The position numbers and the translations under genes are program-made. 38,631 nucleotides of DNA, taken from positions 1 through 38,631 of the forward strand of contig JACPYF010000027.1 of the NCBI GenBank assembly GCA_016196195.1, in the 5' to 3' direction. Position 1 is the first letter of the stretch. Each line of letters opens with the position of its first letter. The notes under the pieces were generated by a model that made no database searches, was not told the DNA's origin, and saw nothing but the letters and a program-made list of their open reading frames with translations. This DNA is from Candidatus Saccharimonadota bacterium (GTDB taxonomy: Bacteria > Patescibacteriota > Saccharimonadia > Saccharimonadales > Saccharimonadaceae). Positions 1,519 through 30,155 of this stretch are shown piece by piece.

Positions 1519-2917
1519 TATTCGCCTCCATTGAGCGCGCTAGAGCGAGCAGGGCAGCATCAGACTTTAACTGGCCTATCAGCTGTACGCCGACTGGCAG
1601 ACCTTCAGCCGTTTCACCTGCAGGTACACTGATCGCCGGAACGCCGGCTAGATTAGCTGGGGTAGTCATGACATCTGTCATATACATCTTTAGAGGATCG
1701 TCAGTGTTCTCGCCAAGCTTGAATGCAACTGTTGGAGTAACGGGACCGATCAAGACATCGTACTTTTCAAACAATCCATTGAACTGCTGGATCAGTAGCG
1801 TGCGAGCGCGAGCGGCTTGGTTGTAGTAGGCGTCATAGTAACCACTAGACAGCACATAGCTACCAATCAGAATACGCCGTTTGTTTTCTGGCTCAAACCC
1901 CTGATCACGACTCTTGCCATATAATTCCCCTAGGTCTTTTGCACCCGCCCGAACTCCGTACCGTATACCATCGTAACGTGCTAGGTTTGAACTGACTTCG
2001 GCAGGGACTATTATGTAATACATAGCTAGGCACATTGGTGCTAATGGCAGGCTGACTTCTTCTACCGAATGTCCGGCCGTACGCAATTTTTCTATATAGT
2101 CATTTGTGATTTTTAACACTTCTGGCTCTACGCCATCACTCATGAGCTCTTTTACTATTCCGACCTTTTGCTTTTTAACCTGTTCGGTTTGAGGTTTGAA
2201 AAAGTCAGGTAAGGTTGTTGCGTCGTAATCGTCTTTACCGGCCAGTACATCCATCACTAGCTCGGCATCGGCAATGTTTTTTGTAATTGGGCCGATCACG
2301 TCGGTACTGCTAGCCATGGCAACAACACCAAAGCGACTGACAGTTCCATAGGTAGGCTTGACGCCGACTACACCGTTAAAACTAGCTGGCTGACGGATAG
2401 AACCGCCTGTGTCGCTACCTAGTGTGAATGGTACGATATCTAGCGCTACAGCAACGGCAGATCCGCCAGATGAGCCGCCAGCGACTCGTGCTGTATCGAC
2501 AGCATTTTTGGTTGGACCGTAAGCCGAGTTTTCGGTACTACCACCATGGGCAAATGCGTCTAGGTTGGCTTTGCCTATACAGATTGCGCCCTCGGCCTCT
2601 AACTTCTCGACCGCAGTGGCCTGAATTGGAGCCTCGAAATTACCTAAAATCTTACTTGCAGCAGTAGTTGGTGAACCAAATGTCAAAAAGTTGTCCTTTG
2701 CGACAAAGGGAACACCTGCTAATCGGCCGGCGTTTTCGCCCTTTTTTATGCGAGAATCAATTTCATCGGCACGTTTTAGCGCTCTTTCATTTGTTAAGCT
2801 CAGAATCGCGTTGAAATCCTTTTTGTCATTAGCACGTTTTAGCGCCTCTTCAACTTGAGCTTTTGCACTAGACGAACCTGAAGCAACTGCGTCGACGATG
2901 TTTTGAATGTTAGACAT
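1511..2917 (-). CDS. gatA: Asp/Glu-tRNA amidotransferase subunit A (amidase)
   Basis: Amidase signature GGSSGGSAVAVALDIVPFTLGSDTGGSIRQPASFNGVVGVKPTYG. Confidence 0.97.
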   Translation of the reverse strand: MSNIQNIVDAVASGSSSAKAQVEEALKRANDKKDFNAILSLTNERALKRADEIDSRIKKGENAGRLAGVPFVAKDNFLTFGSPTTAASKILGNFEAPIQATAVEKLEAEGAICIGKANLDAFAHGGSTENSAYGPTKNAVDTARVAGGSSGGSAVAVALDIVPFTLGSDTGGSIRQPASFNGVVGVKPTYGTVSRFGVVAMASSTDVIGPITKNIADAELVMDVLAGKDDYDATTLPDFFKPQTEQVKKQKVGIVKELMSDGVEPEVLKITNDYIEKLRTAGHSVEEVSLPLAPMCLAMYYIIVPAEVSSNLARYDGIRYGVRAGAKDLGELYGKSRDQGFEPENKRRILIGSYVLSSGYYDAYYNQAARARTLLIQQFNGLFEKYDVLIGPVTPTVAFKLGENTDDPLKMYMTDVMTTPANLAGVPAISVPAGETAEGLPVGVQLIGQLKSDAALLALARSMEANNE

Positions 2918-3207
2918 TAGATAACCTTTGGTACCTTGATTTGATGTTCCGATTGCTCGGGCGCTGTGGCTAGTAATTGCTCGCGACTAACACCATAATC
3001 TATCACTTCGTCCGCACGATCAATATTTTCAAGGCCATTAACTTGATATGTCGGGTCAACACCGGTTGTATCTAACGTGCTAAGTTGACTAACGTAATTT
3101 AGGATGTTTTCTAGATCAGCCTGCATAGACACGACTTCGTCGTCGGTCAGAGTAATGTTACTGAGGGATGCTAAATGCACAACCTCGTCTTTTGAGATGC
3201 TCGCCAT
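2917..3207 (-). CDS. gatC: Asp/Glu-tRNA amidotransferase subunit C
   Basis: 96 aa, VVHLASLSNITLTDDEV...ILNYVSQLSTLDTTGVDPT; directly upstream of gatA. Confidence 0.93.
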   Translation of the reverse strand: MASISKDEVVHLASLSNITLTDDEVVSMQADLENILNYVSQLSTLDTTGVDPTYQVNGLENIDRADEVIDYGVSREQLLATAPEQSEHQIKVPKVI

Positions 3208-27925: not shown

Positions 27926-28294
27926 TTAGTTCATTCGCGCTAGCCTAGAATCTATAACTTTCTGGATTTTTTCATCTGACCAACCGCGATTTTTTAGCTC
28001 GTCTTTGATCTTGCCAGCCATTGCTGTGCGAAAATCCTCGCGAGTTTTAAAACCGTGCTTTTTGAGCACTTGGTCAAAATCTGATGTTTTCAACTCTTCT
28101 CGCAGTTGATCAGTCGAAATACCTAGTATACTGGCGTGCAGCTCAAGTTTTCGGTCGTGTCGGCGGGTTACCCGCTCTATCCTAGATTCACTACGCGACC
28201 CCGAACCGCTGGTTGCCGAGGCAAAGCTACTATTACCTATGGTCAAAACCGTCACGATCAGCAAGCTGACTAGTGTTTTGGTTGCTATTTTCAT
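27926..28294 (-). CDS. Small secreted helical protein
   Basis: Signal peptide MKIATKTLVSLLIVTVLTIGNSSFASA plus LGISTDQLREELK-type helices. Confidence 0.65.
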   Translation of the reverse strand: MKIATKTLVSLLIVTVLTIGNSSFASATSGSGSRSESRIERVTRRHDRKLELHASILGISTDQLREELKTSDFDQVLKKHGFKTREDFRTAMAGKIKDELKNRGWSDEKIQKVIDSRLARMN

Positions 28295-29021: not shown

Positions 29022-29321
29022 ATGCACGTAGAGAGCCGAAAAAATAGCATATCGATCGCTTCTGAGATCATCGGGCACAAGTGGACAGCCGAAATATTGT
29101 ATGCGCTGAGCCTTAGTCCGCAACGTTTCTGCCAGATACAACGCTCTGCAGGCGGCGTTAATCCTCGCACATTATCGGCACGTTTGGACGACCTAGAAAA
29201 GGAAAAGATTATTTCTCGTCAGCCCATGCAGGACTGCGCTGGTGATCAATACCAGCTAGAGAAAAAAGGCCTGGACCTACTGCCCGCCATAAGAGCTATG
29301 ACCGATTGGGGTAAAAAGTAA
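29022..29321 (+). CDS. HxlR-family winged-helix regulator
   Basis: IIGHKWTAEILYALSLSPQRFCQIQRSAGGVNPRTLSARLDDLEKEKIISR. Confidence 0.88.
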   Translation: MHVESRKNSISIASEIIGHKWTAEILYALSLSPQRFCQIQRSAGGVNPRTLSARLDDLEKEKIISRQPMQDCAGDQYQLEKKGLDLLPAIRAMTDWGKK

Positions 29322-29322
29322 T

Positions 29323-29952
29323 CTAGCTAAACCTTGTTAGATGTATTCCACACTCCATCTTTTGATCTGGACCTTTTGTTGGATCTGAATAATTCATATT
29401 TTTTGGATAACCAGAAAGTTTAAAAAAATCATCAACTTCTTGTGCTGTGACATCTAACACGGGGTTTATGGCCAAAAATGAACCTCGGCGCTCTATATAT
29501 GACATTGCCTCTCTTTCAACCGTTTGGTCGCGCATTACGCCGAATAGTACTGCCTCTGGCTGATAACGATCAACCACTTCCCTTTGAAATAATTCGACTT
29601 TCCTAGCACGCAAAGCTTCCGCATCATGCACCACCTGGATATGATCACCGTGAACAGCTAAATTCAGATCAAAAACACCTTCATACCATTTGGCTAGCGT
29701 CTTTGTTTTATCGGTTTCGTGGCCCATGCGTACTGTGACCACCTGAATACCAGGGTCAACTTCACTGATAAATTTTAGCATCAGCGGTGAAGTTAGTCCG
29801 AAAGCCGTCGTAGCGATCAAGCCATCGCCAAACCTCTGCCTAGCCCAAGCTATCCTTTCTATTGGATCCATCTGCTCCAGCTCGATATTGAACTGATCTA
29901 AATCATAATCCGTAAACTCGATCTCTGGTTTTGGTAGTGTTTCTGTTGACAT
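29323..29952 (-). CDS. cysH: PAPS reductase-like (CysH family)
   Basis: ATTAFGLTSPLMLKFI PP-loop-like region and C-terminal MECGIHLTRFS; lacks paired-Cys Fe-S motifs of APS reductases. Confidence 0.8.
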   Translation of the reverse strand: MSTETLPKPEIEFTDYDLDQFNIELEQMDPIERIAWARQRFGDGLIATTAFGLTSPLMLKFISEVDPGIQVVTVRMGHETDKTKTLAKWYEGVFDLNLAVHGDHIQVVHDAEALRARKVELFQREVVDRYQPEAVLFGVMRDQTVEREAMSYIERRGSFLAINPVLDVTAQEVDDFFKLSGYPKNMNYSDPTKGPDQKMECGIHLTRFS

Positions 29953-29958
29953 GAAAAT

Positions 29959-29987
29959 ATCCTTTCTCCAACAATCGGAAAAAGGAT
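29959..29987 (-). promoter_or_regulatory. RBS-sequestering hairpin (riboswitch expression platform)
   Basis: Minus strand ATCCTTTTTCC-GATTGTT-GGAGAAAGGAT: 11-bp stem with one wobble enclosing the cysH SD. Confidence 0.75.
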
Positions 29988-30000
29988 CCTGAGGCGACTC

Positions 30001-30103
30001 ATAAAATATCTTTTCCGAAAATCGGAACTAGATTTAGCACCCAACTAAAAGGGTTGCTGGCAGGTCACAGGGCTAGGTCCCTCGCTGCGCTCTTGATATT
30101 AAA
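30001..30103 (-). ncRNA. SAM-I (S-box) riboswitch aptamer
   Basis: Minus strand AATATCAAGAGCGCAGCGAGGGACCTAGCCCTGTGACCTGCCAGCAACCCTTTTAGTTGGGTGCTAAATCTAGTTCCGATTTTCGGAAAAGATATT matches S-box core; P1 AATATC/GATATT, P2 GCAG/CTGC, P3 AACCC/GGGTG, P4 TTCCGA/TCGGAA. Confidence 0.92.
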
Positions 30104-30155
30104 TTGTTAATGTATATTTATATTAACATATTAGCTGAGTATGTTAGTAGCTACC

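Follow-up and report, generated by a model that had tools for sequence, protein, structure and literature searches.

The question raised by the 38,631-nt stretch of Saccharibacteria DNA analyzed here (the window) is what a SAM riboswitch regulates when the gene behind it is a solitary, divergent cysH homologue. To our knowledge, few regulatory mechanisms have been described in Patescibacteria, and no paper on SAM riboswitches in this phylum was found in the literature searched. The riboswitch class and the translational platform described below are ordinary; the novelty lies in the survey presented here and in finding such a leader on a divergent cysH-like gene where the genus has no detected metK. 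It is this target, combined with the missing metK, that is unusual. We consider it likely that the element is a functional SAM-I riboswitch that turns off translation of the CysH-like gene in response to SAM, in a genus lacking detectable metK. It is best read as an OFF switch of the metK type, inherited or captured, that now sits on the cysH-like gene. The initial annotation had likewise placed a translational SAM-I element before a lone cysH-like gene in a compact CPR-type genome, a description borne out for this member of the Saccharibacteria. The genome is tiny, and the organism probably host-dependent.

The aptamer itself lies at 30003-30102 on the minus strand, the strand of all leader features given below. 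Its S-box core and P1-P4 pairings had been recognized from the sequence alone, and a covariance-model search with RF00162, proposed at the same time, gave a significant full-length match (cmscan, 56.4 bits against a gathering threshold of 44.4, E 1.4e-10, model positions 1-108). It is the single SAM-I element in the 585-kb, 41-contig genome. In a fold with P1 enforced (-45.9 kcal/mol), the 5′ strand of this switching helix is AAUAUC (30095-30100), and that fold and the RF00162 alignment agree on GAUAUU (30005-30010) as its 3′ strand. The pseudoknot joining L2 (CUAG, 30073-30076) to J3/4 (CUAG, 30028-30031) is intact. Its pairs covary across the collected loci, given that UGG/CCA (35), UAG/CUA (27) and CGG/CCG (15) all occur as the inner three pairs. 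Directly upstream, a conserved stretch at 30103-30122, TAAATATACATTAACAAT, aligns with the sister species and is a candidate promoter or 5′ end. An aptamer with this fold could in principle sense another ligand, such as a nucleotide made by the CysH-like enzyme, and the unusual target and missing metK lean that way; we regard this as highly improbable, however, as every core element of RF00162 is matched and the off-consensus positions are likewise off-consensus in the metK leaders of relatives.

Downstream of the aptamer, folding predicts two mutually exclusive structures. The sequestor is a hairpin at 29959-29987, supported by folding and a hairpin scan, whose 3′ arm contains the Shine-Dalgarno (SD) sequence GAAAGGAU (29959-29966), ending 6 nt before the ATG; the unpaired probability of its eight bases is 0.00-0.14 in the fold of the window leader. 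A hairpin of 11 bp had been proposed around the cysH SD; the hairpin stands, and its length becomes 13 pairs including G-U. Its 5′ arm, CUUUUUCCGA (29975-29984), is used by both structures, and can alternatively pair over up to 9 bp with the anti-sequestor strand UCGGAAAAG (30010-30018), comprising the 3′ side of P4, J4/1 and the first base of the P1 3′ strand. By computation, the platform thus competes with the 3′ strand of the aptamer, taking P4/J4-1 and the first P1 base. The earlier proposal that the P4/P1 strand pairs with the sequestor was recovered as described, and this anti-sequestor is part of the minimum free energy (MFE) structure (-33.4 kcal/mol) of the nascent transcript that has not yet reached the SD.

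In the full window leader, the anti-sequestor state lies 2.7 kcal/mol above the sequestor state, while the state with P1 formed is at most 0.2 kcal/mol from the MFE. The leader is more stable than 195 of 200 shuffles (z = -2.2). Since the MFE structure of the complete leader hides the SD even without ligand, any switching has to be driven by folding kinetics or by slight differences in energy. The gap in the window and that of 3.0 kcal/mol in the sister species, treated below, could be bridged by kinetics or by ligand.

The same hairpin invites a different mechanism, in which SAM binding makes hairpin 29959-29987, followed by AUAUUUUC, terminate transcription, with occlusion of the SD a secondary effect. 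The hairpin scan classes it as terminator-like, and it stands in a short, U-rich leader. A published scheme also includes a "dual" class with a terminator no more than 10 nt from the start codon and the ribosome-binding site in its 3′ arm (PMC2258182). Against this, G-C pairs make up only 4 of the 13 in the hairpin, and the AUUUUC tail is weak. Moreover, the SD, separated from the ATG by 6 nt, is carried in the very arm at which the transcript would end, and this SD-in-arm design is common to metK leaders of the family. We therefore judge a dual or transcriptional attenuator unlikely. The transcriptional type of SAM-I nevertheless seems present in the phylum, given that related aptamers (AATCAAGAGCGATGGGGAGAG) at two loci, L026 and L044, lead into U-tailed hairpins and then into ORFs other than metK.

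Comparison with related Saccharibacteria places the translational design in a familiar setting. Their metK SAM-I leaders resemble the window leader in aptamer class, pseudoknot and location of the SD in the 3′ arm of a hairpin, and they share the start region GAAAGGAU-AUUUUU-ATGTC. In 23 of 28 readable metK leaders of the family the MFE fold hides the SD in a hairpin, so that translational S-boxes, considered less usual than terminator-type ones in the initial annotation, are in fact the norm here. The same test was positive for 258 of 680 shuffled or random upstream sequences, and therefore supports this design without proving it; more telling than the count are the length and regularity of the stems and the recurrence of the pattern CTCCTTTC/ATCCTTTC...GAAAGGAG/GAAAGGAT. 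Moreover, metK leaders such as L051 and L045 have a start region very similar to that of the window leader (GAAAGGATATTTTCATGTCA), suggesting that the latter originated from metK. Near the locus, the window has no neighbors in common with the metK loci of other genera, and thus nothing there points to metK having been replaced in place. The difference from these relatives thus lies in the gene controlled, which is cysH-like in a genus where metK was not found. SAM-I upstream of a cysH homologue has a precedent in Bacillus, where SAM-I leaders of cysH-sat-cysC operons have been listed for B. methanolicus (PMC4342826). In that case cysH belongs to sulfate assimilation and shares its operon with sat and cysC, and separate SAM-I elements precede metK and other genes; in contrast, the window gene stands alone and is divergent, with neither sat nor sulfite reductase detected.

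The genus of the window is represented in our collection by two genomes, that of the window and G404, the sister species. The latter (1.5 Mb) also has a single SAM-I element (59 bits), located 48 nt upstream of a homologue 61% identical to the window CysH-like protein, and gene order around the riboswitch and the cysH-like gene is the same in both. The two aptamers are 96% identical, with changes confined to loops and joining strands. For the cysH-like gene dS is 1.65 and dN/dS 0.16, while dS in adjacent genes ranges from about 0.8 to saturation; identity of the aptamer at this level while synonymous sites are near saturation argues that the RNA is under strong selection. Judged by its sequence, the CysH-like protein is under purifying selection, and its gene evolves faster than its RmuC, 122-aa protein or aquaporin-like neighbors. 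The 122-aa protein (27926-28294, minus strand) is itself unusually constrained, being 98% identical in the sister despite diverged synonymous sites. An HxlR-type regulator (29022-29321, plus strand) is convergent with the cysH-like gene in both species, and in the sister locus (L093, 12600-13223, plus strand) a flavin-reductase-like gene that is missing from the window lies beside it.

In the sister leader the A run of the anti-sequestor is broken after three A (AAACAG, compared with AAAAG in the window) and the U run of the sequestor is two shorter. The resulting 7-bp anti-sequestor ties with the MFE of the nascent RNA and lies above that of the full leader by the gap given earlier. These changes bear on whether the riboswitch is a relic of a lost metK that no longer regulates usefully and from which the cysH-like gene borrows a promoter and ribosome site. 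Such an origin would agree with the failure to find metK in the genus and with other metK-less genomes of the family that keep SAM-I before unrelated genes. The joint shortening of both runs, the near-identity of the aptamers across near-saturated synonymous divergence and the placement of their differences in loops and joining strands all speak against it, and we hold a relic to be quite improbable.

The regulated ORF (29323-29952, minus strand) encodes a 209-aa divergent CysH-like protein with a C-terminal ECGIH, assigned to PF01507 at 41.3 bits (Pfam threshold 22.5). Like the PAPS reductases CysH of PDB entries 6vpu and 1sur, it has an alignable N-terminal half and a C-terminal ECG(I/L)H, the catalytic motif being retained in both species (ECGIH and ECGLH). 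The window ORF is shorter than these enzymes, and Arg75 replaces the aligned Asp of the DTG-type motif in both species of the genus (R75-M/L-G aligned to D-T-G of 6vpu and 1sur). Furthermore, it falls far under the cut-offs of curated CysH families (TIGR02057, 69.2 against 254.2; NF002537, 60.9 against 154; TIGR00434, 58.2 against 165.1). The initial reading of a lone PAPS-reductase homologue was thus right in that the cysH-like gene is alone but overstated its function, given the missed cut-offs and the altered central motif. Structure prediction from the two sequences gave a mean pLDDT of 50. No such gene was found in the other 293 genomes of the family or in 379 genomes sampled from the phylum, and no relatives of the protein in the phage and viral collections and contigs searched. 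In PHROGs only the sister protein had a match, a single weak one to PAPS reductase. PADLOC returned no credible defense family; a weak match of the sister protein to ZorA (E 0.004) is probably spurious.

Is the gene likely to take part in sulfate assimilation? Gene content was assessed by family searches. The initial annotation had suggested checking the rest of the genome for sat, cysK and metK, among other genes, and searches recovered none of these three from the two genomes of the genus: PF02773 (metK) had no match while 10 control genomes were positive, and ATP sulfurylase, PALP/CysK and sulfite reductase (NIR_SIR) were similarly without match in both genomes, with controls positive. The pathway context expected of CysH (ATP sulfurylase, sulfite reductase and CysK) was thus not recovered from the two metagenome-assembled genomes (MAGs), which makes canonical sulfate assimilation improbable. 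As these MAGs are 84% (window) and 94% complete (G404, with 7% contamination), absence of metK is likely rather than certain, and any gene absence here may be an assembly gap. The further proposal that the riboswitch senses scavenged or host-derived SAM fits the absence of metK and of the sulfur genes, although absence is no proof of it. Absence of metK is not peculiar to this genus, as 73 of 206 good genomes of the family lack it.

Across the phylum, SAM-I is commonly a metK element. It occurs in 84 of 380 genomes, and metK was present in the fetched stretch at 96 of 113 SAM-I loci examined, nearly always directly after the aptamer. Four phylum loci (L027, L029, L049 and L067) have SAM-I-like hits of 41-56 bits with common TCATCGAGAG...GATG ends; small unknown ORFs come next, metK is absent from each locus, and the four may form a variant group. 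In the family, SAM-I is found in 153 of 295 genomes and metK in 172; metK is present in 147 of the 153 genomes with SAM-I (Fisher p 1.6e-48, only indicative given that the genomes are related). The six exceptions, the window genome, G404, G422, G428, G478 and G510, make SAM-I without metK rare but not unique to the genus of the window. The aptamer of G422 is at a contig end, with final bases ATGTCTGC after the SD hairpin that resemble a metK start, while a ClpB-like AAA ORF follows SAM-I in G510. A 2OG-oxygenase-like ORF is downstream of SAM-I in G428, where no metK was found; at this locus (L124), SAM-I (3097-3207, minus strand) with an SD hairpin precedes a 2OG-Fe(II) oxygenase-like ORF (2430-3047, minus strand). 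In G478 a 181-aa ORF is downstream of SAM-I, and its congener G494 has a 59%-identical copy between SAM-I and metK; the gene directly follows SAM-I in both (L125, 3340-4022, and L144, 2254-3891).

Taking these observations together with the preferred reading of a translational OFF switch, the following sequence of events can be proposed. Without SAM, UCGGAAAAG (the 3′ strand of P4/J4-1) would pair with the sequestor 5′ arm, leaving the SD free and allowing the CysH-like protein to be made. With SAM bound in vivo, P1 and P4 would be locked, the 5′ arm released and the 13-bp hairpin closed over GAAAGGAU, so that translation stops; we infer this direction of control from the energetics of the folds and from SAM-I precedent. 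The lineage probably takes SAM from outside, and the SAM level, probably reflecting imported SAM, would decide when a sulfur- or nucleotide-handling enzyme is made, one that would act outside canonical sulfate assimilation. With metK missing and the leader serving a fast-evolving CysH-like gene, the cell would in this way gauge its own SAM level.

More broadly, a common metK switch of the phylum persists in one genus without detected metK, and the locus provides a natural example of a regulatory leader passing from one gene to another. We offer tentatively, as a possibility with somewhat less than even weight, that Saccharibacteria which give up metK and depend on SAM from the host retain the metK leader, and that other genes take it over: the cysH-like gene here, the 2OG-oxygenase-like gene in G428 and, in G478, the 181-aa gene that lies between SAM-I and metK in G494. 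If true, SAM-I in these bacteria reports SAM supplied by the host, not SAM of their own synthesis. If SAM is imported, the RNA would provide an epibiont with a built-in means of sensing a metabolite of its host.
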